Assembly (NCBI RefSeq): GCF_008370495.1
Contig: NZ_VTUX01000010.1
Location: forward strand, 124,001 to 188,000
Source of the DNA: Pseudohalioglobus sediminis
Lineage (GTDB): Bacteria; Pseudomonadota; Gammaproteobacteria; Pseudomonadales; Halieaceae
Reading direction: 5' to 3'
Length of the DNA stretch: 64,000 bases
Numbering within the stretch: the first letter of the stretch is position 1; every line of letters begins with the position of its first letter. The notes below the pieces were generated by a model that had not been told where the DNA came from, did no database searches, and saw nothing but the letters and a program-made list of their open reading frames with translations. This document shows positions 31,148 through 60,972 of this stretch, one piece after another. Both the position numbers and the translations under genes were made by a program.

Positions 31148-31199
31148 GTGCTCTCTCCTTATTGTTATCGGCACGTCGCGGGTGCCATGCGCCGGCTGG

Positions 31200-31222: not shown

Positions 31223-31234
31223 GGCAGACAACCA

Positions 31235-31248
31235 TTGACCCCGATCAA
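31235..31248. promoter_or_regulatory. Possible FNR/ANR box
   Basis: TTGACCCCGATCAA matches TTGAT-N4-ATCAA at nine of ten consensus positions. It lies 88 bases upstream of the fhs start and could link one-carbon metabolism or the plus-strand transcript to oxygen supply. The chance occurrence of near matches is not negligible. Confidence 0.3.
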
Positions 31249-31443
31249 CTACCGGCGCAGTATAAGCGGTCTGTCCAAACAGGACTGAAAACATTACCAG
31301 CGTAGATTACAGCAGCAAAACCATGATCACACTGCACCAGACATATAGCTATAAGCGAAGCGGCATGCAAACCGCATCGCCGGTATGCCTGTGTAAAGGC
31401 AGCGTGATTTGAGGACGCACATGTAATCAGCAATATTGATAAC

Positions 31444-44032: not shown

Positions 44033-45514
44033 ATGCAACAACTTTCTGGCCAGGATGCCATGTTCCTGCACGCGGAGATCGATGGTCTGCCACAACACAT
44101 CGGCGGTGTCAGCATCTACGATCAGTCCACCGCGCCTGGCGGCAAGGTCCGCTTCAAACAGATCCTGGACATGCTCGAGCGACGCCTGCACCTGTCACCG
44201 ATATTCCGTCGCAAACTGGCCTTTGTGCCGGGTGGCCTGGGGCGGCCTTACTGGGTGGAAGACCCGGACTTTGACCTGGAATACCACGTGCGCCACATTG
44301 CCCTGCCGAAGCCGGGCGACTGGCGCCAGTTGTGCATCCTGACCGCGCGCATTCACTCCATGCCGCTACGACGCGACAAGCCCATGTGGGAAATGTATGT
44401 GATCGAGGGGCTGAACAACGTCGAGGGCTATCCACGGGGCTGTTTCGGCCTCCTGCTCAAGGTGCACCACTGCGCGATGGACGGCGCCACCGGTACGCAA
44501 TTCATGAATATCGTCCACGACCTGACACCGGAGACCCGGGATCCCGGCAATCCACCGCCCTGGATCGTGGAACGCCCGTCAAAGGCGCGTATGCTGGGTC
44601 GCGCCTACCTGGATGCCTGGCGCAAACCGGGCCAGGCGCTCGATTTCATCAAGGAATCGATCCCCGCCGCCCTGCGCATCCGCCGCGGCAGCAAGGCCGG
44701 TTCTTTTCACTTCATCGAGGACAAGCCCACCACGCGCTTCCAGGGTAAGATTTCCCGACACCGGGTGGTTGGGGCAAGGAAGTTCGACTTCGAGCAGGTG
44801 CGGGAAATCAAGAACAGTGTACCGGGCGCCACCATCAACGACGCCATGCTGACCATCGTCTCCGGCGCCATGCGCCGTTACCTCGAGGACAAGGGTGAAC
44901 TACCGGATGAATCACTGGTGACCGGCTGCCCTATCGATGTGCGCTCGCCAGAGGAAAAGGCCGCCGGTGGCAATATGGTGGGCTTTATGAACGTGGCCCT
45001 GTGCAGTGACATCCTCGACCCGGCAGCGCGACTGGCAGCGATTCACGAGGAGTCACAGAACGCCAAGACCTATGCCGAAGCGCTGGGACCCCGCTTCGCC
45101 GTTGACCTCACCGATGTACTGCCGGGTAACGTGCTGTCCCTGGCCGTGCGCACGGCCTCCGCCACCGGCCTGTCAGAGGCCAGCGTGATGTTCAACACCA
45201 TCGTCACCAACGTCCCGGGGGCGCCCTACCAGTTGTACATGTGCGGGGCCGCCCTGGTGGACTCCATCAGCCTCGGGCCGCTGTTGCCGAATGTCGGCCT
45301 GTTCCAGATCGTGTACAGCTCGGTGCAGAACAAGAAGGGCAGCATCGTGCTGTCATTTACGGCTTGCCGGGAAATGATGCCCGACCCCGAATTCTATGCG
45401 AAATGCCTGCAGGCATCCTTTGATGAACTGTATGCGGCCACGGTCAGGAAAACGAAGAAGAAGAAAAAGCCTGCGGCAAAGAAAAAACGCAGTCGGACTA
45501 AAGGAACTGCTTGA
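44033..45514 (+). CDS. Wax ester synthase/diacylglycerol acyltransferase (WS/DGAT)
   Basis: A 493-residue acyltransferase of the WS/DGAT family, which joins acyl-CoA to fatty alcohols or diacylglycerol for storage lipids. The active-site motif is HHCAMDG (about residues 144 to 150), preceded by LLLKV; a second conserved region is TIVTNVPGAPYQLYMCGA. The C-terminus carries a lysine-rich tail (KKKKKPAAKKKRSR), unusual but seen in some family members. Its 3' end overlaps the ABC1 kinase by 17 bases in tail-to-tail orientation. Confidence 0.9.
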   Translation: MQQLSGQDAMFLHAEIDGLPQHIGGVSIYDQSTAPGGKVRFKQILDMLERRLHLSPIFRRKLAFVPGGLGRPYWVEDPDFDLEYHVRHIALPKPGDWRQLCILTARIHSMPLRRDKPMWEMYVIEGLNNVEGYPRGCFGLLLKVHHCAMDGATGTQFMNIVHDLTPETRDPGNPPPWIVERPSKARMLGRAYLDAWRKPGQALDFIKESIPAALRIRRGSKAGSFHFIEDKPTTRFQGKISRHRVVGARKFDFEQVREIKNSVPGATINDAMLTIVSGAMRRYLEDKGELPDESLVTGCPIDVRSPEEKAAGGNMVGFMNVALCSDILDPAARLAAIHEESQNAKTYAEALGPRFAVDLTDVLPGNVLSLAVRTASATGLSEASVMFNTIVTNVPGAPYQLYMCGAALVDSISLGPLLPNVGLFQIVYSSVQNKKGSIVLSFTACREMMPDPEFYAKCLQASFDELYAATVRKTKKKKKPAAKKKRSRTKGTA

Positions 45515-46826
45515 TCAGCGCGTGCACATTGACCCGCGCCCTGAGCCGACTGGCCAGCAGGAACATGCCACCCAGCTTGCGGTGGAAATACACCGCATCG
45601 GTCGGTGGTGCCTGCCAGAAGTCGCGATAATCGGTCACGTCCTCGGCCATTGCCGACATGCGGTTGGCCATGTCGGAGCGCGCGAAATCGTAAGGTGCGT
45701 CCTCCTGCAAAGGCTCCAGCGCCAGCAGGAACAGTGACAACACCAGTTCCCGGTAGTCACTGTCCTCATCGCCCATGGCGTAGCCCACTTTCTCCGCGGC
45801 GGCGACCAGGCGCTTCTCGTTGCCGGCAATCGCCGCTTTTACCAGGCTGCGATAGGCATTGGCAAATCCGGCCTTGAAACGCCGGGTAGCACCGAAATCA
45901 AGCAGTACTATCTTGCCGCTGGCCCGATTGTACTGGTAGTTGGCAAAATTGGGATCTGTCTGCACCATGCGCAATTCGAACAGTTCCCTGAACATCAGTT
46001 CTACCAGCGAGGTCATCACCGCATCGCGTTCTTCCTGCGGCAGGTCGGCGATCGACTCAATGGGTTCGCCGCTGACATAGGTCATCGCCAGCACCGTCTG
46101 GCGAGTGAGGTCAGGCAGCACCTCCGGCACCAGGAAACGTTCATCGCCAGCAAGCAGATCACCGAAGGCGGCAAGGAATTCGGCCTCCTTGTTGTAGTCG
46201 GCCTCATCCTTGAGTTGCGCCTTGGCGTCATCGAGTAGCGGCTGAATATTGAATTCTGTCGGCAGTAATCCGGAAACCCGCAGCAGTGCGGCGATATTGT
46301 CGACATCCGCATCGATACTGCCCGCGACACCGGGATACTGCACCTTGAGCACAATCTCGCGCCCGTCCGGGGAGACAGCCCGATGCACCTGCCCTATGGA
46401 GGCCGCAGCCAGGGGCCGGTGCTGAAACCCGTAGAACACCGCCTCCCAGTCTTCGCCGTAGGCATCGGTCATGACCTTGTCCAGTTGGCCCGGTGGCATA
46501 TAGCGCGCATCGGCACGCAAGCGGGCGAGTATGTCGGCCAACTCCCGGGGCAGGAAGTCCCCGGCATCCATGGACAGTATCTGCCCTACCTTCATGGCAG
46601 CGCCGCGCATGGTCGCCAGTTGGTCAGCCACGCGGCGGGCATTGGCCGGTGTCATCAACATGTCCCGGGCGCGCGGCCTTTTCCCGGCACGCAACTGGCG
46701 CGTGCCCTCCGCGAGCATGCCACCGGCGACACCGCTGGCCATGCGCGCCACCCGGGCAAAGCGCCCTACCCGGGAAGTCGGTACTGCCTTGTGCTTCTCA
46801 TTACGCTCGTTACGGTCTTTTGCCAC
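45498..46826 (-). CDS. ABC1/UbiB-family atypical kinase, second of a pair
   Basis: A 442-residue ABC1 (UbiB/AarF) kinase-like protein. The family KxGQ motif is KVGQIL near residue 76; SIGQVHRA and EIVLKVQYPGV (ATP Lys) follow, then VLLDFGATRRF. The GTG at 46826 lies 17 bases inside the preceding gene, behind GGAGCGAG. Family members support ubiquinone synthesis or lipid homeostasis. Two consecutive copies occur here beside a WS/DGAT, a common pairing in lipid-accumulating marine bacteria. Confidence 0.88.
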   Translation of the reverse strand: MAKDRNERNEKHKAVPTSRVGRFARVARMASGVAGGMLAEGTRQLRAGKRPRARDMLMTPANARRVADQLATMRGAAMKVGQILSMDAGDFLPRELADILARLRADARYMPPGQLDKVMTDAYGEDWEAVFYGFQHRPLAAASIGQVHRAVSPDGREIVLKVQYPGVAGSIDADVDNIAALLRVSGLLPTEFNIQPLLDDAKAQLKDEADYNKEAEFLAAFGDLLAGDERFLVPEVLPDLTRQTVLAMTYVSGEPIESIADLPQEERDAVMTSLVELMFRELFELRMVQTDPNFANYQYNRASGKIVLLDFGATRRFKAGFANAYRSLVKAAIAGNEKRLVAAAEKVGYAMGDEDSDYRELVLSLFLLALEPLQEDAPYDFARSDMANRMSAMAEDVTDYRDFWQAPPTDAVYFHRKLGGMFLLASRLRARVNVHALIKQFL

Positions 46827-48222
46827 GCTGTTCTCGCTCCTGCCAGGCTGCCACATGGGCCTCGATCATGTCGCAGGCATTGAACTGGGCATCCAGCACC
46901 GCGATAAAGTTAAATACGCCTGTAAGCTTGCGGGCGATCAGTGCAAAGTCCCGTGATGGCGGCGTGAAGTGCCGGCTGGCAGCAGACGCCGCCGCTTGTT
47001 TGCCGGCGCGCTTCATCAGGCGTGAGCGCCCCCAGCAGTACTCGCCACGCTCGTTGAGGTACTCTGCGGGCAGTTTGTCGACTGGCCGCAGCGGCTCCAG
47101 CAGGTGTAAACAGAAGTCGGCGAACATCTTCCTGCCCTCCTCGCTGGCATCCGGCTGCAGGCAACCCAGACCTATGAGGCCGTCGACAATAGCGGGCACG
47201 TCCTCGCGCTGGCTGGCAGCGATGGTATGACGCAGGTGGTAGAGAAAGTCCTCGGAGCAGTCCAGCACCGAGCCGAAGTCCAGCAGCGCCAGTTCATCAT
47301 GTGCATGCTTTTTGCGCCGGTCGTCCAGGCGCAGCAGGTAGTTACCAAAGTTCGGATCGGTTTGCAGTACGCCCCAGTCATAGAGCTCGTAAAAAAACAG
47401 TTCCAGCATCGCGCGAGCCAGCGCATTGCGCCGCGCCTGGGACAGGCCGGCAACATCCGCATCGATAACCGAGTAACCCTCGATATACTCCATGGCGAGA
47501 ACCTCGCCACTGCAGTATCGGGGGTAGAGTTCCGGCACGTGATAACGCACACCGTCGAGTTCGAGGCCGGCCACGCGCGCGCCCATCTCCCGTGTTAACC
47601 GGGCCTCGCGCTGGTAATCGATTTCATTGTGCAAATGCGTGCGCAGGGATTGCATCCAGCTGTCCAGGTCGCGTCCGGACTTGACCCAGCGGGCCAGCAC
47701 CAGCATTTTCACTACCGCGTCAAAGTCGCTGTCGATCATCTGCGCCAGGCCGGGATACTGTACCTTGATACAGATCCACTCCCCGGTATCGCGAATTTTG
47801 GCCAGGTGCACCTGTGCCAGTGACGCCGCCGCGATGGCCTCGGGATCAATTTCCAATTCGTCGAAAACCGGGCCCAGTGAACCGCGCACAAAGGACTCCA
47901 GCGCATCCCAGTGCAACGGTTCAGTTGCATCAGACAGGTCGCGCAACGCATCAACCAGCACCGGAGGCAGGAAATGCTCGCCAAACAGGGCCAGCATCTG
48001 CCCGATCTTGACGTAAGTGCCCTTGAGGCGCCCCAGTTCCTCGGCGAAGCGCTGGGCCTCACGCCGCGCGAATTCCGATTGGGGATCATCCTCACTGCGC
48101 CCCAGCACCCGCGACATGGCGCTGTCCACTGCCAGCGCCCCGCCTGCGCGCAGGCCGGCCATGGATACGGACAGACTGCGACCCAGAGCCCGGGTGGGAA
48201 ACGGTTTCTTTTTCCTGGCCAC
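46810..48222 (-). CDS. ABC1/UbiB-family atypical kinase, first of a pair
   Basis: A 470-residue ABC1 kinase-like protein: basic start MARKKKPFPT, the KxGQ motif YVKIGQML, then SLAQVHLAKI, WICIKVQYPG and the metal-site LLDFGSVLD. The GTG at 48222 has GAGGT at five bases. Its end overlaps the start of the second copy. Only about a third of residues seem shared between the two, so this is an old duplication. Confidence 0.88.
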   Translation of the reverse strand: MARKKKPFPTRALGRSLSVSMAGLRAGGALAVDSAMSRVLGRSEDDPQSEFARREAQRFAEELGRLKGTYVKIGQMLALFGEHFLPPVLVDALRDLSDATEPLHWDALESFVRGSLGPVFDELEIDPEAIAAASLAQVHLAKIRDTGEWICIKVQYPGLAQMIDSDFDAVVKMLVLARWVKSGRDLDSWMQSLRTHLHNEIDYQREARLTREMGARVAGLELDGVRYHVPELYPRYCSGEVLAMEYIEGYSVIDADVAGLSQARRNALARAMLELFFYELYDWGVLQTDPNFGNYLLRLDDRRKKHAHDELALLDFGSVLDCSEDFLYHLRHTIAASQREDVPAIVDGLIGLGCLQPDASEEGRKMFADFCLHLLEPLRPVDKLPAEYLNERGEYCWGRSRLMKRAGKQAAASAASRHFTPPSRDFALIARKLTGVFNFIAVLDAQFNACDMIEAHVAAWQEREQRGKRP

Positions 48223-48254: not shown

Positions 48255-48893
48255 CTAGACCTGGTCGCGCGCCGGCAACTGCAGCGGTTCACCCTGGCCT
48301 TCGGCACGCTTGAACGCGGGACGCGAGGTCATGCGTTCAAGGTAATTACGCGTCTGCGGCTTGAACCGTTCATCGAGTTGCAGCGCCCTGGCAAAGAACA
48401 ACGCGTAGGTAACGGCAATATCGGCTATCGTGAAACGCCCATCCACCAGGAACTCGTGACTTTCCAGGTGCGCGTCCAGGCGCCGCAAACGCGCGATAAA
48501 CCACTTGGCGTAGTCGTCGGCGACGGCCTGCTTTTCAGGGCTGGGCTCGAGGTAGTAATAGCGCATGGAAATCGTTTGCGGAAAGGTCAGCGTAGCATCG
48601 GCATGATGCAGCCAGTTCAGGTAGTCACCGTACTGCGCATGCTCCGGGCGCAGGCCGAAATCGTATTGCTGGTAGCGGTCAACCAGGTACTGGCAGATAG
48701 CCGACGATTCCGTCATGTGCGTATCGCCATCGACAAAATACGGGACGGTACCCAGCGCGTTGACCTCAAGGTAATCGCGTTGGAACACCCGCGGCGGAAA
48801 GGGCAGTATCTCGATGTCGTACTCAAGGCCCATCTCTTCCAGCGCCCACAGCGGGCGCAGGGAACGCGAGCCGGCACAATGCCAAAGCTTCAT
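48255..48893 (-). CDS. Glutathione S-transferase family protein
   Basis: A 212-residue GST. The N-terminal thioredoxin-like half has the catalytic-region Ser pair in HCAGSRSLRPLWALEEMG, the cis-Pro in ALGTVPYFVDG and the glutathione-binding ESSAICQYL; the helical C-half contains GRFTIADIAVTYALF with the N-capping box. Close to other marine beta/theta-type GSTs. GGAG lies seven bases before the ATG. Confidence 0.9.
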   Translation of the reverse strand: MKLWHCAGSRSLRPLWALEEMGLEYDIEILPFPPRVFQRDYLEVNALGTVPYFVDGDTHMTESSAICQYLVDRYQQYDFGLRPEHAQYGDYLNWLHHADATLTFPQTISMRYYYLEPSPEKQAVADDYAKWFIARLRRLDAHLESHEFLVDGRFTIADIAVTYALFFARALQLDERFKPQTRNYLERMTSRPAFKRAEGQGEPLQLPARDQV

Positions 48894-49109: not shown

Positions 49110-50423
49110 TCAGTCCTCGATCTCGCCGGTCTCCAGGCGCTTGTTGTAGATCGCCTTGAGCTTGTACAGGTCCTGCTGCAGTTCGAAGAAACCGTGCCAG
49201 TGAGCGTAATCCGGTGCGCCCATCATGGCGCCCTGCCGCGCCCGACGGCCCTGGTGGTGCCAGAGGTAGTAGTACACGATCTGGAATTCATCCGTCCAGG
49301 GATTGTCGCGCACCAGCCCCTTCTCCTTGAGCTCGTTGAGCATCGCGGTGGCCGGCTCGTAATAGGCCTCGTTGTAGAGCCGTACGGCCTTGTCACCCTG
49401 CTTGAAGAAACCCTCGGTATGCGACTGCGTGTGGCAGTTGTTACAGACCATTTTCATCTTTTCACGGCCGGCGGGGCCATCACCCAGCAGCGGGCTGAGC
49501 ACATCATCCGAGCCGCGCACATTGGATTTCTTGGCCCACAGGTTCCAGTACAGGCGCTCGCTGATATTGTGGGTGACAGCCAGTTCACCGATGCCGCTCA
49601 TGTGACAGGTGGCGCAGGTCGGACCGCGGTAATCACCCGGCTCCCAGGCATCGGGCGCGGAGTCCATTTTCCACTCATCACCCTCGGTGTTGTAGATGTG
49701 GCCATGCTTGGAATTGTTGAAGATTTCGATGTTGGGGTGGTCCGGCCCCAGGTGGCAGGAGGCGCAGGCGTGCGGGTGCCGGGCCTCGGCAATAGAGAAC
49801 TTGTGCCGGCTGTGACAGGCGGTACAGCTGCCGGTGCTGCCATCGGGATAGATATTGCCCATGCCGTTGTTGGGCCAGGTTTCCGGTGTGGGGCGGTTGT
49901 TTTCATCCAGCTTGATTTCGGTACCGTGGCACTGCATACAGCCGGTTTCCCCGGGGGCACCCGAGAGTTCCGGGTGATTCTGGCCCTCATGCACGATTTG
50001 CAATGCGTGCAGGCTGTCCTTGGGAATAATCTGGCGATAGGCGCGGAAGTGGCCGGAGGCGTCGAACTGTTCCTTCGCATCCACGTGGCAGCGTCCACAC
50101 ACGGCGGGAGATACCAGCGCCGATACGAACACCGGGGTGTCCTCGACGTTGGCGTGCCGCGTTGCATGCGGCGCGTCCTCGGGCACCTGGTGGCAGTCGA
50201 TACAGGAGATACCCGCATGTGCGTGGCGGCTGTCGGCCCAGTCGGATACCTGCCCCGGGGAAATTTGCTGGTGGCAGGTGATACAGGCCTTACCTTCTGC
50301 GCTCAGGTCGCGATTGATCTTGAGGGTCTTCACCGGCGCAATGCTCATGGACGTATCGGCCTGGGTCAGCGCGACAACGCCCAGCATGACGATGGACAGG
50401 CCAATCTGCATTAGTGCTTTCAT
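49110..50423 (-). CDS. Octahaem hydroxylamine-oxidoreductase-like cytochrome c
   Basis: A 437-residue periplasmic protein with a signal peptide ending near TQA (residue 22). It has eight CXXCH sites near residues 47, 74, 109, 162, 200, 220, 270 and 327, the number and order of HAO-family octahaem cytochromes. The C-terminal signature WHHQGRRARQGAMMGAPDY followed by HWHG (residues 388 to 411) is typical of HAO. It is shorter than nitrifier HAO (about 550) and lacks a C-terminal anchor, like the HAO relatives of nitrite ammonifiers. The ATG at 50423 shares one base with the stop of the NapC/NirT-like gene (TAATG), so the two form one unit. Nitrite, hydroxylamine or NO reduction is more likely than ammonia oxidation. 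Confidence 0.9.
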   Translation of the reverse strand: MKALMQIGLSIVMLGVVALTQADTSMSIAPVKTLKINRDLSAEGKACITCHQQISPGQVSDWADSRHAHAGISCIDCHQVPEDAPHATRHANVEDTPVFVSALVSPAVCGRCHVDAKEQFDASGHFRAYRQIIPKDSLHALQIVHEGQNHPELSGAPGETGCMQCHGTEIKLDENNRPTPETWPNNGMGNIYPDGSTGSCTACHSRHKFSIAEARHPHACASCHLGPDHPNIEIFNNSKHGHIYNTEGDEWKMDSAPDAWEPGDYRGPTCATCHMSGIGELAVTHNISERLYWNLWAKKSNVRGSDDVLSPLLGDGPAGREKMKMVCNNCHTQSHTEGFFKQGDKAVRLYNEAYYEPATAMLNELKEKGLVRDNPWTDEFQIVYYYLWHHQGRRARQGAMMGAPDYAHWHGFFELQQDLYKLKAIYNKRLETGEIED

Positions 50424-50986
50424 TATTTTTCGCCCTCTGGTTTGGGCCAGCCCATGGCCTCGAGATGATAGCCCAGCCGATTGTGGCCGACATGCTCGTG
50501 GCACTCTACGCAGCTGTAGTCGTCTGGATCATTGAAATAACGGCGATGCCCGCGGAAGGCCTTGCGATTGCTCTCGGTGGCCTCCTGCAGGTACTTGTGG
50601 CAATTCAGGCAGGATGAGTCGTAAACGAATTTTTCGCGACGCTCGCGAATGCCGTGCCAGTCGATCTCGTGAGGCTCCTTGAGCAGCGACATGGTCGGGT
50701 CGACAATGCCGTGTTTTGCCTTGACCACGAAGTAGTGCAACGAGTTGTCGTGCGGTAAATGGCAATCGTTGCACGCAGCGCGGAAACCGTACTGGTTATT
50801 CCCCCCGTGCACATCTTCACGATAGGCAGCAGCAATCGGCTCATAGCCATGACAACTGGTGCAGAATTCGTAGTCCCCGGTTGCGTGGAACGCGGTATCG
50901 AAGACAGCCCAGCTGGCAATCGCACCGATGCCCACGACAGACAGCACTACAAGGGCCTTGACTATCCGATTATTGAATAGATTCAC
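50423..50986 (-). CDS. NapC/NirT-family tetrahaem cytochrome c (quinol dehydrogenase)
   Basis: A 187-residue inner-membrane-anchored protein: one helix at residues 9 to 30, then four CXXCH sites at 42, 72, 126 and 159 in the NapC/NirT/CymA arrangement, with KAKHGI near residue 91 after the second haem. Such proteins oxidise menaquinol or ubiquinol and pass electrons to periplasmic reductases. It starts with GTG at 50986. It can serve its co-encoded octahaem partner, and by analogy with CymA of Shewanella it may also feed the MtrABC proteins encoded on the other strand. Confidence 0.92.
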   Translation of the reverse strand: MNLFNNRIVKALVVLSVVGIGAIASWAVFDTAFHATGDYEFCTSCHGYEPIAAAYREDVHGGNNQYGFRAACNDCHLPHDNSLHYFVVKAKHGIVDPTMSLLKEPHEIDWHGIRERREKFVYDSSCLNCHKYLQEATESNRKAFRGHRRYFNDPDDYSCVECHEHVGHNRLGYHLEAMGWPKPEGEK

Positions 50987-51294
50987 CGAGCATTGATCCC
51001 TGGTTTCTAATTCTCGTTTTATTGTTGTCCAGTGCTGGCAGGCTCGACCTTACTCCCCTGCCAATCACGCACAAACTTTCAGGAAATCATAGCAGAGCAC
51101 CGCAATCTGGCAATCACTAATCTGCCTTTCACCCTATGGCGGGGAGAAACTGGTGTCGTGAGCTCCACATCGTTGTTCCCGGTTCAAAAATATCGCGTTG
51201 GACTCGCAGATATTCCCCTTACGGGGTAACCTTGTGAGCCAACGCTCAAGCGGGCCAACCGCCGGTTATTGTTCACCACAGGCTCACGCAGTAA
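50987..51294. other. Divergent control region of the cytochrome island
   Basis: About 308 bases between the NapC/NirT-like gene and the prenyltransferase gene, less GC-rich than its surroundings near 51000-51130. It holds an inverted repeat AATATC (51189-51194)/GATATT (51209-51214) and a small CCCC/GGGG hairpin at 51215-51226. I see no clear FNR, NarP or NsrR box. It must contain both promoters. Confidence 0.5.
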
Positions 51295-52287
51295 ATGATC
51301 GATTTCACAATGTGGGGCAAGGCCCTCAACCAGATGCCAAAGCTTTCGCCGCATGAGTGGCAGGCTCTGGACCCTGTCGCCAAGTGGCTCATCGCCTGTC
51401 GCGCCTCGGTGTTGTTTATGACCTTCACCGCCGCCGCCCTCGGTGGGCTGCTGGCATGGCGTGCGGGTGCCTTCCAGTGGGATCTCTGGCTGGCCACGGT
51501 GCTCGGCCTGATGTTCGCCCACGCCACCAACAACCTGCTCAATGATTACACTGACTCGCGCCGGGGTATCGACAAGGACAATTACTACCGCAACCAGTAC
51601 GGTGTGCACGTGCTGGAAGACGGCCTGATGAGCGAGAGCCAGTTCTGGCGCTATGTGGGCGTTACTGCAGGCTTGGCCCTGGTCCTGGGCGGCTGGCTGA
51701 TCTACCAGCGCAGCGGCCTGACCCTGGATCTCATGTTGGCAGGTGCGTTCTTCGTACTGTTCTACACCTGGCCGTTAAAGTACTACGGCATGGGCGAGCC
51801 CGCCGTGCTCCTGGTCTGGGGGCCGCTTATGGTTGGCGGCAGCTACTACGTGCTCGCCGGGAGCTGGAGTTGGGACGTGACCTGGTTGAGCCTGGTGTTC
51901 GCACTGGGCCCCACCACTGTATTGTTCGGCAAGCACACCGATAAACTGGAGGCCGACCGCAGCAAGGGCGTGAATACGCTGCCGGTGATCCTCGGCGAAG
52001 CCGCCTCCCGTTACAGCGTGCTGGCGATGATTGCCGCACAATACCTGCTCTGTTTGGCCCTGGTCTGGTCGGGCAGCTTCAGCTGGCCCCTGTTACTGGT
52101 CCTGGTCAGTCTGCCCGTGCTGCCGCAGCTGTTCTCCGTTTACGGCAAGCCCAAACCGGCGGAGCCACCGGCAGATTATCCCAGCGGCGTCTGGCCGCTC
52201 TGGTTCTCCGCCTTTGCCTTCCAACACACGCGCAGGTTTACATCCCTGTTCCTGCTGGGCGTGATCGTCGATACCGTGCTCGCATGA
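51295..52287 (+). CDS. UbiA/MenA-like prenyltransferase
   Basis: A 330-residue membrane protein with about eight or nine helices. The first prenyl-diphosphate/Mg motif is NNLLNDYTDSRRGID (residues 79 to 93), which fits the MenA pattern NDYxDxxxGxD; the second is DKLEADRSKGVNTLPVILG near residue 218. MenA-type enzymes prenylate dihydroxynaphthoate on the way to menaquinone. It begins the plus-strand cytochrome set, its stop overlapping the next start (ATGA). It could make a dedicated quinone for the electron-transfer chain. The ring substrate cannot be read from sequence. Confidence 0.85.
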   Translation: MIDFTMWGKALNQMPKLSPHEWQALDPVAKWLIACRASVLFMTFTAAALGGLLAWRAGAFQWDLWLATVLGLMFAHATNNLLNDYTDSRRGIDKDNYYRNQYGVHVLEDGLMSESQFWRYVGVTAGLALVLGGWLIYQRSGLTLDLMLAGAFFVLFYTWPLKYYGMGEPAVLLVWGPLMVGGSYYVLAGSWSWDVTWLSLVFALGPTTVLFGKHTDKLEADRSKGVNTLPVILGEAASRYSVLAMIAAQYLLCLALVWSGSFSWPLLLVLVSLPVLPQLFSVYGKPKPAEPPADYPSGVWPLWFSAFAFQHTRRFTSLFLLGVIVDTVLA

Positions 52288-53780
52288 CCAGGTTCTTTCT
52301 ACGATCTGCCAAAGCCGCCTGCGCACTGTTGTTGTGTCTGCTGTGGGGCCCCGCACTGGCAGCCACTGACGCCGCCGAGGCGATTCAGCCCTGCCTCGAC
52401 TGCCACGACTACGGCGAGAACGCCCCCGCCCACCAGGTCTTACTCGGTTCACACGGCATCGACGGTGACCCGGCAGACATCGGCGCTCGCCGCGGCTGCC
52501 TGGACTGTCACGGAGAAAGCGCCGCCCACATAGACGACCCGCGCCGGCACGGGCCCGACCTCAGTTTCGGACCCCGCTGGACCGCCAGCGGCAGCGCCCA
52601 GGACAGGCCCTGCCTCGACTGCCACCTCCAGGACAGCGCCAGCGACTGGCAGAACGCCTTGCACATGGTCAACAACATGACCTGCATCACCTGCCACGAC
52701 ATCCATACCGAGCAGGACCGGGTGCTGGTAGCCTCGACGCAGGGCCAGGTGTGCACCACCTGCCACAAGGCACAAAAATCAGGTATCCACGATCTCGGCG
52801 CCGGGGGGCCGGAGAATCCTCCCTGCAGCCTGTGTCACAACCCCCATGACCACCAGGAAGCCGGGCCGCGCATGGCGGAGAATGCCTCAGCCGGCTGCAC
52901 CTTCTGCCACGATGCGGGGCAGATGTCTTCACTGGCGGCACTGAACCCACGAGCGGGGAACTTCCACCAGGCCGTGGAGAGTGGCAAACGCGCATGCCTC
53001 GACTGTCACCAGGGGATATCACATGCTCCCGAGGACAGCGCGCCGCTACTGCACCCGGCGCCCGTGCGCGGCCGCCAGGTCACCCTGTTCTATCCGGGCA
53101 ATGCCACACGCGAGTGGCTGACCAGCGGCCACCCGGGCTCACAACCGCTGCGCCAGGGCACCGAATGTGCCCTGTGTCATCGCGGCGACGAGGCAGCCAT
53201 GGGCGCAAGTCTGGCGCCGGACCTGGAACGCCCCTGGCGCCAGGTTGGCATGGCCTTCTCACGCACCGGGGACGGCCTGCAGATTGACCTCACCTGGCGC
53301 GGCGACTCTGCCGACCAACAACTGGCAATGATGTGGGGCGATGACGACAACACCGCATTTCGTCGCGGCGGCTGTTTTGCCGCCTGCCACGACAACAAGC
53401 AGGGCAAGGCCAGCACGATTCTCAGCCATAGCTCGAGCACAGGCACCGATGCGGCCATGGGGGGGACGAGACCCGGGGCAACACTCTGGACTATCGACCT
53501 CGCCAGCGCCGAAGTCGCCGTGTCGCGCCTGGGGCCCGCTGCCGGTGACGCCTCCGGGCGCACGGTGACAGCCAGTGTGAATAAAGCTGGCGGCGAGTGG
53601 TCGGTGCGTCTCCTGGTAAGCCCCTCCGACCCCAACGCTCCCATGCCACTGGCGGGAGACCAGCGCTACACCTTCGGCGTCGCCATGCACGGGCGCGACA
53701 ATCCCGGACGCGAACACTGGGTGTCGCTACCGATGACCCTGAGCCTGTCAGGACAGAGCACTGACTTTATAGTCGAGTGA
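52284..53780 (+). CDS. Multihaem cytochrome c with C-terminal ethylbenzene-dehydrogenase-like haem domain
   Basis: A 498-residue exported protein (signal peptide to about residue 26). Nine CXXCH sites lie between residues 37 and 300 (first CLDCH at 37, last CALCH at 295). Near residue 364 a CX3CH motif, GGCFAACHDNKQG, gives a possible tenth c-haem. The C-terminal 180 residues (LTWRGDSADQQLAMMWGDDD, ATLWTIDLASAEV, RYTFGVAMHGRD, STDFIVE) resemble the EB_dh-like haem-binding beta domain. It overlaps the prenyltransferase stop by four bases. It probably shuttles electrons in the periplasm; an extracellular site is possible. Confidence 0.82.
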   Translation: MTRFFLRSAKAACALLLCLLWGPALAATDAAEAIQPCLDCHDYGENAPAHQVLLGSHGIDGDPADIGARRGCLDCHGESAAHIDDPRRHGPDLSFGPRWTASGSAQDRPCLDCHLQDSASDWQNALHMVNNMTCITCHDIHTEQDRVLVASTQGQVCTTCHKAQKSGIHDLGAGGPENPPCSLCHNPHDHQEAGPRMAENASAGCTFCHDAGQMSSLAALNPRAGNFHQAVESGKRACLDCHQGISHAPEDSAPLLHPAPVRGRQVTLFYPGNATREWLTSGHPGSQPLRQGTECALCHRGDEAAMGASLAPDLERPWRQVGMAFSRTGDGLQIDLTWRGDSADQQLAMMWGDDDNTAFRRGGCFAACHDNKQGKASTILSHSSSTGTDAAMGGTRPGATLWTIDLASAEVAVSRLGPAAGDASGRTVTASVNKAGGEWSVRLLVSPSDPNAPMPLAGDQRYTFGVAMHGRDNPGREHWVSLPMTLSLSGQSTDFIVE

Positions 53781-54100
53781 ACCGCCCGGCGGACCGACCC
53801 CGCTCTGCCCGGACCTGCGCCTGAGGCCCCCGGTGCCGACGATCGTTGCCGGGCGAGATCTCCAGCGCTGCGCTGGCCCGGGGGTTGCGAAAAACGTTAA
53901 CCCAGATCAAAAAAGATCCAATTCCCGGCACTCAGGATTGGCGCGCCGCCCTTTTCTGTACAATACTAGCCACAAGCCGTGTATTAATTGGTGCCGCCCA
54001 TTCTCTGAGGGGATCAGTTTCGGGCAGTGCTGAGGGCTGGGCCGCAAAGCGCCCCGAACCAGTGCACAGGCGCCACAAAAACGAGCCGAGTAACGTAAAA
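53781..54100 (+). promoter_or_regulatory. Leader region upstream of mtrA-like gene, possible internal promoter
   Basis: This 320-base gap is the only large one within the set. It has a hairpin CCAGCG-CTG-CGCTGG (53862-53876), a weak FNR-like box TTAACCCAGATCAA (53897-53910, right half perfect) and a -10-like TACAAT (53957-53962) about 50 bases downstream. A separate promoter for mtrABC is plausible. The open frame reading through from 53846 lacks a signal peptide or ribosome site and is not taken as the gene start. Confidence 0.4.
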
Positions 54101-54982
54101 ATGATAAATGGACTCGTGCGAACGCTGCTGGTCGCTTGCTGGCTGTCAGCGAGCCACATCGCGTTGTCTGCTGACGAACCGGGCTGCCTCGATTGCCATG
54201 AGGACGAAGCCGGGTCGGTCGTGCACAACGTCTACAAGACGCTGCATGGCAACCTGGATGGTGGCGGAGCGTCTGCCTGTACTGCCTGTCACGGCACTTC
54301 TGCAGCACACGATCGGCGCGGTCGGCGCGAAGCACCCGATATCAGTTTTGGCCCCAAGTGGCTGTCGCCGCTGGAAGACCGCAACGGCGCCTGCCAGAGT
54401 TGCCACGACAACGGCAGCCAGTTGCTCTGGGCGGGCAGTGAACACGAGCAGGAGAACATGGCCTGCACCGATTGCCACGACTCCCATCAATTGCGTGATC
54501 CCGCACTCGACGAGCTCAGCGCACAAAACCAATGCACTAACTGCCACACCCAGGTGAAGGCGCAGTTGCACCTGCCCTCGCGCCACCCCATAGCGGAGGG
54601 CAAAACCGCCTGTACCGACTGCCACAATCCACACGGCAGCGCCAGCGACGCGGCCCTGCACCAGGTCACGCTGAACGAGAACTGCTACAGCTGCCACCAG
54701 GAAAAACGCGGGCCCATGCTCTGGGAGCACGAACCGGTTACGGAAGACTGCGCCCTGTGTCACAAGCCGCATGGCTCTGTACACCCGGGGCTGTTGACCG
54801 CTCGTGGGCCGGCACTCTGCCAGCAATGTCATTCGGCGGCCTTCCACCCCAGCGTAGCCTACGGGGCCGAGGGCCTGCCGGCAGGCAGCAGCAACCGCAA
54901 TCTGCTGGGGCAAAACTGCATGAACTGCCACAGCCAGGTACACGGATCCAACCACCCGTCGGGAGCGCGGCTGACACGATGA
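54101..54982 (+). CDS. mtrA: Decahaem cytochrome c, MtrA/DmsE family
   Basis: A 293-residue periplasmic protein with signal peptide (TLLVACWLSASHIALSA) and ten CXXCH sites from residue 29 to 273, spaced as in MtrA, DmsE and PioA. In Shewanella, MtrA sits inside the MtrB porin and moves electrons across the outer membrane. The ATG at 54101 is chosen because the frame upstream lacks a start with a signal peptide. It overlaps mtrB (ATGA). The protein is slightly shorter than Shewanella MtrA (333). Confidence 0.93.
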   Translation: MINGLVRTLLVACWLSASHIALSADEPGCLDCHEDEAGSVVHNVYKTLHGNLDGGGASACTACHGTSAAHDRRGRREAPDISFGPKWLSPLEDRNGACQSCHDNGSQLLWAGSEHEQENMACTDCHDSHQLRDPALDELSAQNQCTNCHTQVKAQLHLPSRHPIAEGKTACTDCHNPHGSASDAALHQVTLNENCYSCHQEKRGPMLWEHEPVTEDCALCHKPHGSVHPGLLTARGPALCQQCHSAAFHPSVAYGAEGLPAGSSNRNLLGQNCMNCHSQVHGSNHPSGARLTR

Positions 54983-57252
54983 CCAAGCGCACGCAGATAC
55001 CGTTCCAGTTGACCGCCCTCGGCGCTGCCGTGCTGGCAATTAGTGGTGCTGTTGCCCAGACTGAAACGGAAGAAGATACCGCCGCACAAGCTATTTACAC
55101 CCCCCTGTTGATCACCGGGCGCTACCTGGATACCCGCTGGCAGGGCGACTACACGGGCGGCATACAGCTGGGCCTGGGTTACACCTCGGACGACAACTTC
55201 ATGTTTGGCCAGTACAACGGCCTGTATGAGGAAGACATCAAGATTATCGGCAACCTGCGCTGGCAGGACATTTCCCCGGGGGACAGCTACTGGCGCGCGT
55301 CGGTCGATGACCTGGGGCTGGATACGCGCCAGGGAGAAATCGCCTGGGGAAAAAGTGATCAACTGCGTCTGTCTTTCGGCTTTGATTCGCAGATCAAGGC
55401 TGGCAATAACACGGGGGCAACACCGTTTCGCGGCGGTGACAGCCCCCTGCGCCTGCCTCAGGACTGGGTAACGGGTTCAACCACGGGCGACTTCAGCCAG
55501 TTGCAGGCCAGCCTGCAGCAATTTGACCAGGAACTGGAACGCGACAAACTGAGCGCGGCCCTGGCCATGCGCCTCAGTGATGCCTGGCATATCGACGGCA
55601 ACCTGTCCTACGAGGAACGCCAGGGCACCGACAGCACGGCAGGCGCCATCTATTCCGACGCCTCTACGGGCGACGCGGCCCTGCTGCCACTGCCCGTTGA
55701 TTACCGGACCACCGAGTTCGATGCCGGCGTCACCTACAGCGGTGGCAAACTGAACCTTGAGGGCCGTGTCAATTACTCGGACTTCGACAACAAGGACGAT
55801 ATCCTTGTCTGGCAGAACCCCTACCGCTCGCGCTCTCCAGAGAGCGTGGGTGGGCTGGGCCTGGCCCCCGACAATGACCAGTTGCAAGGGCGTTTCACCG
55901 GCCAGTACCTGTTCAGCCCGAAGGTGCGCCTGCAATTCGATGGCAGCTATGCCGTGTCCAATCAGGACCAGTCCTACCTCGATTACAGCGCCAATCCAGC
56001 GGCTGTTGTAGTCGAACCCCTGCCCCGTGACAGCTTTGACGGCGAGGCGCAGACGGGGACCCTGAATGGCAAATTGTGGCTGCGCCCACTGCGCCAGATG
56101 GATGTGGAAGTCTTCTACAAGGCCCGGGAACGGGACTACGACAACCCCCGGGACGGTTACCGCTACATTCGCGGCGACGGCAGCAGCCAGCCTGATGCAG
56201 CATTGACGGTATACAACACATCACACCACTTCCTGTCCCAGACCACAGGCCTGGAGGGCACTTACCGCCTGCCAATGCGCAGCCGCCTGCAATTCGGCTA
56301 CGCATTCGAACGCGTGGAACGGGAAAATGCAGCGGTTGAAGAAACAGAGGAAGACCAGTTCACCCTGGGCTACCGCATACAGCCGCTGGACAGCTTCACC
56401 GCCCGCCTCGAGTTGCTCTACGGCAACCGCAGCGCGGATACCTACAACTGGGACCAGCGCTATTACGCCCTTCTGGACGTGGCGCTGATCAATGCCACCC
56501 CCGACAACCAGCGCTATATCAACCACCCCGAGCTCAGCCAGTACTACATGGCCAACCGCGAGCAGGAACAGGGCAAGCTCGACCTGGCCTGGATGCCGGC
56601 AGAAAACTGGAACCTGAACTTCAACCTGCTGGTGCGCAACGACGACTACGACAAGACCTACACCGGCCTGCGCTATGCCTACTGGGAACGCTATCACCTC
56701 AGCGCCAGTTACAGCCCCGGTGCGAAACTATCAGCCTCGCTTTACGGTGGCTATGACCGCTTCGAATCTGAACAGATGGGCCGCAGCTTCCGCGGTGGCG
56801 CCGAGAAGAACGCCTTTGAGATCTATCCACCCCTGCCCCAGGCCAGCGACCCCGACCGTGACTGGCGCATGGATGCCACCGACACCAGCATCACCCTGGG
56901 TGCCAACGTGATGTGGCAGCTGAGCGAGAGTATTGATCTGGAAGCAGACTACAGTTACGTCGATACCGAGAGCGACCAGGCCTACCGCAGTTACGGTGCG
57001 GCGGACGTGAACCCGCAGGACCTGCCGACGGTGTCAACGACACTGCATCACTTCCGTGCCAGCGGCAACTGGCATATGCGCAAGGACCTGTCGCTGCGCC
57101 TTGATTACCAGTACTACCGCTATCAGGACGATGACTGGGCTTTGCAGGGCGTTGCTGCCGACACTATCGACAAAGTACTGACATTCGGGGCACGTAACCC
57201 CAATGAAAAGATTCACTACGTGGGTGTATCGGCGATTTATCGCTGGAACTAG
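54979..57252 (+). CDS. mtrB: Outer-membrane porin, MtrB/PioB family
   Basis: A 757-residue beta-barrel with signal peptide ending near AVAQ (residue 27). Alternating aromatic strands run to the end (AIYRWN). The family layout of GRYLDTRWQGDYTGGIQLGLGY at the start and GDSPLRLPQDW near residue 155 matches MtrB/PioB-type porins. No N-terminal CXXC pair, described for Shewanella MtrB, is present in the mature sequence. It is the sheath for the decahaem MtrA. ATG at 54979, overlapping the mtrA stop. Confidence 0.92.
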   Translation: MTKRTQIPFQLTALGAAVLAISGAVAQTETEEDTAAQAIYTPLLITGRYLDTRWQGDYTGGIQLGLGYTSDDNFMFGQYNGLYEEDIKIIGNLRWQDISPGDSYWRASVDDLGLDTRQGEIAWGKSDQLRLSFGFDSQIKAGNNTGATPFRGGDSPLRLPQDWVTGSTTGDFSQLQASLQQFDQELERDKLSAALAMRLSDAWHIDGNLSYEERQGTDSTAGAIYSDASTGDAALLPLPVDYRTTEFDAGVTYSGGKLNLEGRVNYSDFDNKDDILVWQNPYRSRSPESVGGLGLAPDNDQLQGRFTGQYLFSPKVRLQFDGSYAVSNQDQSYLDYSANPAAVVVEPLPRDSFDGEAQTGTLNGKLWLRPLRQMDVEVFYKARERDYDNPRDGYRYIRGDGSSQPDAALTVYNTSHHFLSQTTGLEGTYRLPMRSRLQFGYAFERVERENAAVEETEEDQFTLGYRIQPLDSFTARLELLYGNRSADTYNWDQRYYALLDVALINATPDNQRYINHPELSQYYMANREQEQGKLDLAWMPAENWNLNFNLLVRNDDYDKTYTGLRYAYWERYHLSASYSPGAKLSASLYGGYDRFESEQMGRSFRGGAEKNAFEIYPPLPQASDPDRDWRMDATDTSITLGANVMWQLSESIDLEADYSYVDTESDQAYRSYGAADVNPQDLPTVSTTLHHFRASGNWHMRKDLSLRLDYQYYRYQDDDWALQGVAADTIDKVLTFGARNPNEKIHYVGVSAIYRWN

Positions 57253-57289
57253 CACCAACCATGCCCCCGGAGGGCGGGAGAGAGGAAAC

Positions 57290-59563
57290 ATGGGAACACT
57301 TACGCGCAACTGGATAACGGCGGCAATGCTGGGCCTGCTGGTCGCTTGTGGCGGCGGTGGCGGCGGCGATCGGGCGTCAGGCGTCGAACCCGGACCACCT
57401 CCCGGTGGTGGCAATCCCCCCATACCCCCGCCTGTGGTACCCGAACCCGGTGAAGCACCCTACGCCGAACAGGAAGTGCTACTGGCCACGATTACCGAGG
57501 TAAGCCTCAATGGCAGTAACCAGCCCGTGGTGCAGTTTCAGCTGACCAATGAACAGGGCGCGGCCATTGTTGACCTTGAAGCGGGCAACGTGCGTTTCGT
57601 GGTATCCAAGCTGCAGGGCAGCCCTCTCGGCAATCTCACCGGCAGTTGGCAGTCTTATGTCAATCGCATCGAGACCGCCGGCAGCGTCGGCCCGGGCACG
57701 GAAGACAAGCTGCAGGCCACTTACGAACGTGAGGAAGCCAATTTCGTCAACAACGGCGACGGCACCTACCAGTACACCTTTGCCACCGACATCAGCAACC
57801 TGCCCGCTGACATTCTCGCGCAGGCTGAAACCGAGGGCCTGGACCTGAGCTACGAGGCTGATCGCACCCACCGTGTAGCCATGCAATTCGACGGCAATCC
57901 CAACACCACCGCCAACCCGGTTTATGACTGGGTGCCGGCGACAGGCGCCACCGATGGCATCTTCAAAATGGACATCGCCGCCACCGCCAATTGCAACAAC
58001 TGCCACGACCCGCTGGCGATCCATGGGGGCAACCGTCAGGAGATGCAGTACTGCGTCACCTGCCATAACGCAGGCTCCACCGACGCCAACAGTGGCAACA
58101 GCGTGGACATGAAAGTAATGATCCACAAACTGCACATGGGCGCCAACCTGCCCAGCGTGCAGGCCGGCGGTGAGTACGCCATCTGGGGCTTCCGCGACAG
58201 CAAACACGACTATTCGATGCTGCATTACCCCCAGGATATCCGTAACTGCGTTAACTGCCACGCCGGCACCGGCACGGGCGCCGGCCGCGATGACCTGGTG
58301 CTGACCGCCCAGGGTGATAACTGGGCGGAGGTTGCATCCGGCGCTGCCTGCGGCAGCTGTCACGACGGCGAGGGCGCCCAGCGCCACATCAGCGGCCAGG
58401 AAGAGGCCAACTGCAGCAGCTGCCACTCCCAGGGCGGCCCGGCGGGCAGTATTGCCCAGAGTCACGTCAACCTCGTGACCGAGGCGGCAAAGTCCTTCGC
58501 TGCCGAGATCACCGACGTGCGCAATACCATGCCCGGCGAAAACCCCCAGGTGACTTTCCGCATCAGCAACCCGCTTACCGATGAGGACTACGACATCAAG
58601 AACGATCCGGTGTTCGAGCCGTTTGGTGTACGCGTTGGCATCGCCTGGAACACCACCGACTACACCAACACCGGCAATGGCGGCGACAACGCCAGTAACG
58701 CCCAGTCTGACGCCATACTGGCCTCCACCGACAACGGCGACGGCACTTACACCGTGACCATGCCAGTGGCCATACCCGATGGCAGCCTGGCACCCGGCAT
58801 TGCCGCCAGTGGCAGTGGTGCCGCGACCATCGAGGGTCACCCGGTGGCCGATGTGGACGGAGACGGTGAGGCAGACAACATCCCGCTTACCAATGTGCAC
58901 GCCTTCTTCTCTATCGATGAAGCCGATGGCAACCCTGTGGCGCGCCGCCAGTCTGTAGAACTGGCCAGTTGCAACAGCTGCCACAGTTCGCTGGTATTCC
59001 ATGGCAGCAACCGCACCGACGATATAGATGGCTGTGTCACCTGTCACAACCCGCGCAATACCGACAAGCGCGTGCGGGAAATCGCCATGGACCCGCCCAC
59101 AGATGGCAAGGATGAAGAGTCCATCGACTTCAAGACCATGGTGCACGCCATCCATGCCGCCGGCATGCGTGAAAATGCGCTGGAAGTCGTTGGTTTCCGC
59201 GGCTTCAGCACCCATCGCTACACCGAGGAGCAGGTGCACTACCCTGGGGACCTGACCAACTGTACGGCCTGCCACACCGACTCCGGTTACACACTGCCGC
59301 TCGCTGACGGGGTACTGGGCACCACCATCGACACCGGGGATGACCGTGCTGATCCCGGCGACGACACCGTGGTCACGCCGGTCTCGGCAGTATGCTCGAG
59401 CTGCCACGACGACCAGGTTGCACTGTCACACATGAGCTCCAATGGCGGCAACTTCGCCACAACGCAGGCTGCAATCGACGCCGGCGAAGTGGTTGAAGAG
59501 TGCTCGGTTTGTCACGGCGAGGGCCGTAGCGCAGATGTATCGGCGGTGCACAACCCGCGATAG
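57290..59563 (+). CDS. mtrC: OmcA/MtrC-family decahaem surface lipoprotein
   Basis: A 757-residue lipoprotein with lipobox LVAC (Cys20) and a Gly/Pro-rich spacer (residues 21 to 60). Ten CXXCH sites run from residue 235 to 738, in two groups of five separated by a beta domain (residues about 400 to 560). This is the OmcA/MtrC fold: domain I, pentahaem II, beta III, pentahaem IV. The surface cytochrome receives electrons from MtrA-MtrB and passes them to, or takes them from, minerals, electrodes or shuttles. AGAGGAAAC precedes the ATG; 37 bases follow the mtrB stop. The gene order A-B-C differs from Shewanella C-A-B. Confidence 0.93.
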   Translation: MGTLTRNWITAAMLGLLVACGGGGGGDRASGVEPGPPPGGGNPPIPPPVVPEPGEAPYAEQEVLLATITEVSLNGSNQPVVQFQLTNEQGAAIVDLEAGNVRFVVSKLQGSPLGNLTGSWQSYVNRIETAGSVGPGTEDKLQATYEREEANFVNNGDGTYQYTFATDISNLPADILAQAETEGLDLSYEADRTHRVAMQFDGNPNTTANPVYDWVPATGATDGIFKMDIAATANCNNCHDPLAIHGGNRQEMQYCVTCHNAGSTDANSGNSVDMKVMIHKLHMGANLPSVQAGGEYAIWGFRDSKHDYSMLHYPQDIRNCVNCHAGTGTGAGRDDLVLTAQGDNWAEVASGAACGSCHDGEGAQRHISGQEEANCSSCHSQGGPAGSIAQSHVNLVTEAAKSFAAEITDVRNTMPGENPQVTFRISNPLTDEDYDIKNDPVFEPFGVRVGIAWNTTDYTNTGNGGDNASNAQSDAILASTDNGDGTYTVTMPVAIPDGSLAPGIAASGSGAATIEGHPVADVDGDGEADNIPLTNVHAFFSIDEADGNPVARRQSVELASCNSCHSSLVFHGSNRTDDIDGCVTCHNPRNTDKRVREIAMDPPTDGKDEESIDFKTMVHAIHAAGMRENALEVVGFRGFSTHRYTEEQVHYPGDLTNCTACHTDSGYTLPLADGVLGTTIDTGDDRADPGDDTVVTPVSAVCSSCHDDQVALSHMSSNGGNFATTQAAIDAGEVVEECSVCHGEGRSADVSAVHNPR

Positions 59564-59934: not shown

Positions 59935-60972
59935 ATGAAATACATCAATACAGACCGTAATGAGCCAGGCGGCCCGGACCGTGTCGGTGTCCTGATTACC
60001 AATCTGGGCACGCCGGACGCACCGGAAAAAAAATCACTGCGCCGCTACCTCAAGCAGTTCCTCTCTGACCCACGCGTGGTGGAGATCCCGCGTTTGCTAT
60101 GGTGGTTTATCCTCAACCTGGTAATCCTGAATATTCGCCCTTCCCGATCAGCCGCTGCCTACAAAACAGTGTGGACGGAGCGTGGTTCACCGTTGATGTT
60201 TCACACCAGGGACCAGGCGGAACATCTGCGGCAGGCCCTGGGTGAACGCTTTGGTGACCAGGTGATCGTGGATTTCGCAATGCGCTATGGCTCGCCATCT
60301 TTCGCAGACGTCATTGACCGAATGATGGCCGAGGGGGTCACGCGCCTGCTGGTTCTGCCGCTGTATCCCCAGTACAGTTGCGCCACCACCGGCTCTACCT
60401 TCGACGCGGTAGCGGAAGAATTTACTCGACGCCGCAGTGTCCCGTCATTGCGTTTCGTTTCCCGCTACTACGACCATGCCGATTACATTGGCGCCATGGC
60501 GCTGAGTATCAGGGCGTTCCAGCGCGAACACGGCACAGCGGACAAACTGGTGTTCTCCTATCACGGCACACCACAGCGCTATTGCGATCAGGGCGACCCC
60601 TACTACTGCGAATGCATCCATACCTCGCAACTGATTGCTGAGCTGCTGGACCTGCCCGAGGACAGCTACATGACGACGTTCCAGTCACGCTTCGGGCGCG
60701 AGGCGTGGCTGCAACCCTACACCGACGAAACACTGAAAAGCCTGCCGGGCAAGGGCGTGAAATCTGTACAGATAGTATGCCCGGGCTTCAGTGCCGATTG
60801 CCTGGAAACTATCGAGGAAATTGGTGAGGAAAATCGGGAATACTTTATGGAGGCGGGCGGCGAGAGCTACCAGTACATTCCCTGCCTTAACAGTGAACCG
60901 GAGCATATCGCCGTACTGGCGCAGATAGCGGAAGAGGAACTCCAGGGCTGGGTATTGAAGCGCCTGGAGTGA
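59935..60972 (+). CDS. hemH: Ferrochelatase
   Basis: A 345-residue enzyme inserting Fe2+ into protoporphyrin IX. The family motifs are VGVLITNLGTPDAPEKKSLR at the N-terminus, LPLYPQYSCATTGST near residue 142, the metal-site FSYHGTPQRYCDQGDPYYCE (His near residue 206) and VCPGFSADCLETIEEIGEE (Glu near 284). It follows the Mtr cluster on the same strand, perhaps reflecting a local demand for haem. Its ribosome site is weak, and it may have its own promoter in the 371-base gap. Confidence 0.96.
   Translation: MKYINTDRNEPGGPDRVGVLITNLGTPDAPEKKSLRRYLKQFLSDPRVVEIPRLLWWFILNLVILNIRPSRSAAAYKTVWTERGSPLMFHTRDQAEHLRQALGERFGDQVIVDFAMRYGSPSFADVIDRMMAEGVTRLLVLPLYPQYSCATTGSTFDAVAEEFTRRRSVPSLRFVSRYYDHADYIGAMALSIRAFQREHGTADKLVFSYHGTPQRYCDQGDPYYCECIHTSQLIAELLDLPEDSYMTTFQSRFGREAWLQPYTDETLKSLPGKGVKSVQIVCPGFSADCLETIEEIGEENREYFMEAGGESYQYIPCLNSEPEHIAVLAQIAEEELQGWVLKRLE

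Follow-up and report, generated by a model that had tools for sequence, protein, structure and literature searches.

We analysed a 64,000-nucleotide stretch of the genome of Pseudohalioglobus sediminis, family Halieaceae (the window; C1:124001-188000 of a 4.43 Mb genome in 23 contigs), which contains five multihaem cytochromes and an MtrB porin within its positions 49110-59563. Our analysis suggests that these genes represent two modules side by side, an MtrCAB cluster of a described type and a widespread gene pair for a NapC-type tetrahaem cytochrome and an octahaem cytochrome of the hydroxylamine oxidoreductase (HAO) family, here called Hao-like, with the single NapC of the genome probably being the quinol dehydrogenase of both. 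We give this reading an even chance. What is new here is that NapC is kept beside mtr in five genomes without an intact Hao match, and that it adjoins all ten of the scored mtr clusters that have no second tetrahaem type. Rather than forming one new machine, the mtr genes and the Hao pair look like neighbours with a possibly common electron donor.

In the mechanism that we propose, the first module is a Halieaceae (Group 6) MtrCAB conduit, in which the NapC-type tetrahaem would oxidise quinol and electrons would then travel via MtrA-DOMON and/or MtrA in the periplasm, be conducted across the outer membrane within MtrB and exit through MtrC to an outside acceptor at low oxygen. The second module would be a two-gene unit of NapC and an epsilon-Hao-type octahaem protein, probably reducing periplasmic nitrite or hydroxylamine.

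The conduit and the octahaem pair

When recounted in translated frames, the five cytochromes were found to have 41 CXXCH sites (8, 4, 9 plus one CX3CH, 10 and 10), as counted in an initial annotation made from the window alone, and the families named there were matched. Chance runs of CXXCH are ruled out as an explanation because no other window open reading frame (ORF) of at least 60 amino acids has more than two such sites. The raw ORFs of the cytochromes span 49110-50504 (-), 50423-50986 (-), 52284-53780 (+), 53846-54982 (+) and 57203-59563 (+); the likely starts are unlike the raw ORFs for the Hao-like gene (50423), mtrA (54101), mtrB (54979) and mtrC (57290). The Hao-like gene and NapC overlap by 1 base and mtrA and mtrB by 4 bases.

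The three adjacent mtr genes encode a DmsE-type decahaem cytochrome, an MtrB/PioB barrel and an OmcA/MtrC decahaem cytochrome, each over its curated cut-off, and the complete MtrCAB set is predicted to be an outer-membrane electron conduit. This set, the NapC-type tetrahaem and the Hao-like octahaem protein had all been named in the initial annotation and are supported by the family matches. The cytochrome with nine CXXCH and a CX3CH was likewise borne out, and can be refined to an MtrA-like N-terminal half joined to an EB_dh/DOMON-type C-terminal domain (MtrA-DOMON). PF09459 matched 14 of 16 MtrA-DOMON homologues (best 2.6e-13); its match to the window's own protein was weak (E 0.0054, 17.2 bits, under the cut-off of 33.3). 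The CX3CH (residues 364-369, inside the EB_dh/DOMON-type domain) is invariant in all 16 homologues, and is possibly a tenth haem site with unusual spacing. Copies without this domain were observed in three genomes (G002, G008, G044). A structure of MtrA-DOMON predicted from three sequences had a mean predicted local distance difference test (pLDDT) score of 38.8 and was not used. Two further mtr loci had features of their own: L040 (G051:C51, 4189-8985) has two tandem MtrC genes, the second only 31% identical to the window MtrC, and the MtrB match in L042 (G039:C1, 6707-8925) is split into two parts that lie in different frames, which may mean a broken gene.

The octahaem protein has eight c-haem sites and is homologous to HAO over most of its chain. 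Its nearest relative by sequence search was IhOCC of Ignicoccus (4qo5, E 3.6e-41), followed by Nitrosomonas HAO, and a 38-row profile matched these two at 1.3e-66 and 8.7e-37, respectively. IhOCC is also the best structural relative; it is, however, archaeal and longer (521 residues), and we know of no NapC-mtr context for it. A model of the octahaem protein (mean pLDDT 74.8) had ten PDB matches at E ≤0.001, all of them HAO-family chains, with template modelling (TM) scores of only 0.30-0.38. Alignments to 1fgj stop at residue 404, short of placing the cross-linking tyrosine of oxidising HAO, and a C-terminal query matched nothing. Judged by its sequence, the protein is probably a nitrite/hydroxylamine reductase. 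We also considered and rejected ONR and tetrathionate reductase, to which the sequence searches gave no match; only weak ONR/NrfA fold matches were seen, which exclude nothing.

A scan of genome contigs yielded at least 571 relatives of the octahaem protein, of which the best 80 (44-91% identity) were kept. These best 80 span Campylobacter, Helicobacter, Sulfurimonas, Desulfobulbus, Chloroflexi, Acidobacteria, Verrucomicrobia and other records, and identity to the homologues in Campylobacter, Arcobacter and Sulfurimonas records is 48-54%. With relatives in all these records, the protein is not unique to species with mtr. NapC lies directly upstream of the Hao-like gene in 72 of these best 80 loci, as it does in the window; it is missing there in four, and four others were not judgeable or had NapC elsewhere. 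MtrB or MtrC was in view at only two of the 80 (L101, L103), 8 kb being visible on both sides in 37. The Hao gene of Pseudohalioglobus lutimaris HF004 (L101), a species that falls in the host genus and in which the gene order matches that of the window, is at 30032-31342 of NZ_PKUS01000041.1, and the copy in the same-genus genome G005 is at 30032-31342.

The initial annotation had not recognised the combination of these genes, but the cluster type was already listed for Halieaceae by Baker et al. (2022, mBio, PMC8805035). According to their main text, Group 6 mtrCAB comes mostly from Halieaceae and is accompanied by a periplasmic octahaem protein, a nonahaem MtrA-DOMON, a monohaem and a tetrahaem of the inner membrane. 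All Halieaceae clusters but those of two species are described as immediately preceding hemH, a gene that relatives without mtr also carry in these regions. Assigned by family and gene content, the window belongs to this group, as it has the MtrA-DOMON, a tetrahaem, the octahaem protein and hemH just downstream. In that text the accessory cytochromes of Group 6 are said to be unique to these species, the octahaem protein is not assigned to a family, and menaquinone genes are named as a prerequisite for a working MtrCAB; it makes no mention of UbiA, prenyltransferase or ubiquinone. It was the only paper found in literature searches on Halieaceae with mtrC or octaheme, and none was found that joins a prenyltransferase with mtrC and mtrA.

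Other known systems are similar in part. The epsilon-Hao/NapC pair of Campylobacterota (reverse hydroxylamine-ubiquinone redox module, reverse-HURM; Hanson et al. 2013, PMC3701875) likewise consists of an octahaem HAO-family protein and a NapC/NrfH partner, and the Campylobacter concisus homologues are 50% identical, in the same NapC-Hao gene order. In contrast to that pair, ours is gammaproteobacterial and has mtr beside it, with no Hcp and no NapA over cut-off. For the HaoA-NapC pair of Nautilia, reduction of nitrite to hydroxylamine, with Hcp finishing, has been proposed in the text of PMC3701875. CymA-MtrCAB of Shewanella, as described in part by Baker et al. (2022), also combines a tetrahaem quinol dehydrogenase with MtrA, MtrB and MtrC. 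The window differs from it in its gene order (mtrA-B-C), its extra MtrA-DOMON, an MtrB without the CXXC, no menaquinone marker over cut-off, and a tetrahaem that is shared in gene order with a Hao-like gene.

Linkage, tetrahaems and upstream boxes in relatives

We searched 195 relatives, the window's own genome included. MtrC was over cut-off in 31, all Halieaceae, and 17 genomes of the family have an intact Hao, defined as a match at E 1e-200 or better; 15 have both. The search of neighbourhoods across genomes that the initial annotation had called for found linkage in only some of these 15. Hao is adjacent to mtr and divergent, within about 11 kb, in eight (G000, G002, G004, G005, G014, G049, G056, G083), but it is on a different contig in seven (G013, G015, G035, G051, G052, G081, G092). 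The place beside UbiA is visible, and without Hao, in G035, G051 and G081; contig breaks could hide some distant linkage. The remaining 16 of the 31 mtr genomes have no intact Hao match, two of them being poorly complete (G016, 66%; G067, 81%). A Hao relic is kept at the same place in G001. G003 has no MtrC match, and there only relics of UbiA and Hao are left between hemH and ABC1 (L096, G003:C1, 8443-11845), which looks as if the island had been deleted. The G007 region, a 1.1 kb contig, was of no use. On the tree, linked Hao genes are interspersed with unlinked ones and at least three changes are forced, and linkage may therefore have arisen or been kept more than once.

Among other genomes of the class, MtrC was over cut-off in 9 of 368. 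Four of these nine have a Hao relative at E 1e-15, none of them on the mtr contig, and the six mtr regions inspected had no match to UbiA, MtrA-DOMON or the second tetrahaem described below. A multihaem match (22% identical) about 2.5 kb before mtrC in G359 counts against a clean absence.

Two tetrahaem types adjoin Halieaceae mtr: the NapC of the Hao pair, and a type that we labelled c7, which is perhaps the group 6 tetrahaem of Baker et al. (2022). The window is unlike the 18 of 28 scored clusters in which c7 is present. NapC is adjacent in all ten clusters where c7 is missing and in 4 of the 18 that have it (Fisher p 1.5e-4, uncorrected for kinship). Clusters truncated at a contig end or retrieved only in part (G016, G022, G038, G062, G067, G092, G094) do not enter this comparison, whereas two fragments with MtrC not over cut-off (G044, G045) do. 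The five genomes in which NapC adjoins mtr without an intact Hao match (G001, G006, G037, G072, G090) sit at three places on the NapC tree, where well-supported branches force at least three changes, many other forks being weak. NapC stays beside mtr in these genomes, and the simplest reading of the gene arrangements is that it is able to serve mtr too. Of the mtr-Hao connection drawn in the initial annotation, this weaker link through NapC survives, whereas a single unit does not. In the window genome the NapC query had a single match at E 1e-20 (the locus copy), c7 had none at that threshold, and no other tetrahaem was found by these two queries.

The consensus for FNR/ANR binding is TTGATNNNNATCAA. 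Upstream boxes were accepted to a limit of score 1, with a G at one position counted as half a mismatch (our choice); counts leave out L098, L099 (the window's own), the relic L096, genes with a late-starting match and upstream stretches of <300 bases. Of 28 clusters, 14 have an FNR-type box within this limit in the 350 bases that precede mtrA. Twelve of these 14 score 0.5 or better, and several fall within the 3' end of the MtrA-DOMON gene; among random stretches of equal length from these loci, 77 of 4000 had a box. The boxes before mtrA in relatives point to expression at low oxygen. NapC has a box in 2 of 13 cases, both with a single intergenic stretch common to NapC and mtrA, and none was found at seven Hao/NapC loci away from mtr (five from mtr genomes, plus G064, and G156 of another family). 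Boxes were absent before HemH (0/21), GST (0/13), ABC1 (0/16), MtrB (0/28) and MtrC (0/30), and occasional before UbiA (2/38), MtrA-DOMON (2/20) and c7 (1/18). The rule is not a clean one, as of four Hao genes that lack the paired NapC two have a box inside the limit (L093 at 1, L095 at 0.5). CRP and NarL-like patterns had no matches in the NapC-UbiA and NapC-mtrA intergenic stretches.

Probable quinone pool and insertion site

In Shewanella, the chain is considered to depend on menaquinol. MenD was over cut-off in 1 of 58 genomes and in none of the 37 from Halieaceae, and MqnC in none of 38, 25 of them Halieaceae. Since neither is over cut-off in the family, ubiquinone is the likely pool, and NapC would probably be fed by ubiquinol. 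Sub-cut-off MqnC matches were mostly in frames of ~790-1110 amino acids with two MqnC-like radical SAM stretches (G000:C16:410111-412387, and in many family genomes), which we take to be perhaps fused F420 FO synthases. The UbiA protein of the window is below every MenA cut-off, its nearest NCBIfam models being MenA types; with MenD and MqnC also not over cut-off in the family, UbiA was rejected as a menaquinone gene of the conduit.

UbiA matches were found in 54 of the 195 genomes, 27 of these with MtrC over cut-off. The initial annotation had counted this prenyltransferase in the combination, and UbiA does adjoin mtr, but it is at least partly a flank of an insertion site: it adjoins hemH with no mtr between them in five genomes (G017, G033, G047, G059, G077), and the mtr run was probably inserted between the two. 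Counter to UbiA being a mere flank are its 4-base overlap with the MtrA-DOMON gene in the window, and its position beside mtr in G015, G043, G052 and G062, where hemH is not in view. The site between GST/ABC1 and hemH holds varied gene sets among relatives. Beyond it, window positions 44033-48222 hold a wax ester synthase/DGAT gene and two ABC1-kinase genes, a flank common to several relatives.

Table 1. Features of the mtr-Hao locus and its flanks, in window positions.
Feature	Position	Strand	Evidence
Octahaem c-type cytochrome, HAO family, epsilon-Hao/IhOCC-like	49110..50423	-	8 CXXCH; PF13447 multihaem; 4qo5 match
NapC/NrfH-type tetrahaem quinol dehydrogenase	50423..50986	-	PF03264 100.8 bits; NrfH of NrfHA structure 2j7a E 1.9e-8
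UbiA-family prenyltransferase, divergent from NapC	51295..52287	+	PF01040 107.4 bits
MtrA-DOMON, nine-haem MtrA-like with EB_dh-type C domain and CX3CH	52284..53780	+	9 CXXCH; homologue alignment
Degenerate FNR/ANR-like box upstream of mtrA	53897..53910	.	Score 1.5, outside limit of 1
MtrA/DmsE-type decahaem cytochrome	54101..54982	+	10 CXXCH; TIGR03508 267.9 bits (cut-off 192.2)
MtrB/PioB outer-membrane barrel, no cysteine	54979..57252	+	PF11854 392.5 bits; TIGR03509 345.2 (cut-off 240.05)
MtrC/OmcA-type decahaem surface lipoprotein (predicted)	57290..59563	+	TIGR03507 498.1 bits (cut-off 209.3); 10 CXXCH; lipobox-like LLVAC near start
hemH ferrochelatase, downstream flank of insertion site	59935..60972	+	PF00762, TIGR00109 over cut-off
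GST-like gene, other flank	48255..48893	-	Same flank in several relatives
ABC1 gene, flank beside GST-like gene	46810-48222		Flank position

Explanations and their meaning for Halieaceae

The initial annotation had suggested one functional unit, in which conduit and octahaem enzyme exchange periplasmic electrons. In such a unit, for instance, MtrC-imported electrons could reduce nitrite, or nitrogen oxidation could discharge outwards. The divergent neighbours in eight genomes and the tree, on which linkage may have arisen or been kept repeatedly, argue for this, and a shared quinol dehydrogenase would couple mtr and Hao indirectly. It nevertheless appears improbable, as the result named in advance as speaking against a unit, separate loci with unlike regulation, is what we found. 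The genes are apart in 7 of 15 genomes, 16 of 31 mtr genomes have no intact Hao, and the motifs upstream of mtr and of Hao/NapC differ; on these grounds mtr-Hao as one conserved unit was rejected. The mtr genomes elsewhere in the class, with no Hao relative on the mtr contig apart from the distant match in G359, also speak against it. It is less improbable, although we doubt it, that NapC serves the octahaem enzyme alone, that the conduit has another donor and that their adjacency reflects a shared insertion site beside UbiA and hemH. The pairing of NapC with Hao in most of the best 80 of at least 571 loci, nearly all without mtr in view, and the varied gene sets at the GST/ABC1-hemH site are consistent with this; the persistence of NapC beside mtr in five genomes without intact Hao, and the lack of another tetrahaem in the window genome by two queries, are not. 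Finally, there is a slim chance that the conduit runs inward, electrons of reduced metals or particles entering the ubiquinone pool via MtrCAB. A pool that is probably high-potential ubiquinone, and an MtrB without the CXXC seen in Shewanella, would suit such a flow, but the presence of MtrC and the FNR-type boxes that point to low-oxygen expression argue against it.

Several observations also weigh against our preferred reading of two modules with a shared NapC. None of 29 MtrB, the window's among them, has the Shewanella-type N-terminal CXXC when read from its likely start (in L056 one CXXC sits upstream of that start). This motif is a signature of metal-reducing Gammaproteobacteria and not of all MtrB; its first cysteine is reported in PMC12175506 to be required for Fe(III) reduction in Shewanella. 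Hcp, the hydroxylamine reductase of the reverse-HURM pathway, was found in 0 of 41 genomes, own included, and NapA was over cut-off in 8 of 41, the window genome not among them; nitrite would therefore come from elsewhere. Menaquinone was judged by two marker genes only (MenD, MqnC). Both tetrahaems adjoin mtr in G001, G006, G014 and G049, and because of this NapC is not merely a substitute there. Finally, the window's own mtrA box is degenerate.

With somewhat less confidence than we place in the two modules themselves, we hypothesize that Halieaceae have repeatedly recruited NapC from an epsilon-Hao nitrite-reducing pair as quinol dehydrogenase for an oxygen-regulated MtrCAB conduit. Ubiquinol would then replace menaquinol, and one inner-membrane cytochrome could pass electrons either to periplasmic nitrite or to outside acceptors. 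The cluster itself is of a described type; what would matter, if true, is an Mtr conduit that draws on ubiquinol by way of a borrowed NapC. Our data also correct the record for the octahaem protein, which had been listed as unique to Group 6 mtr species and is in fact one member of a widespread epsilon-Hao-like family. Halieaceae are regarded as marine aerobes, and therefore a low-oxygen outlet to outside acceptors, if true, would change the view of their life in sediments and on particles.

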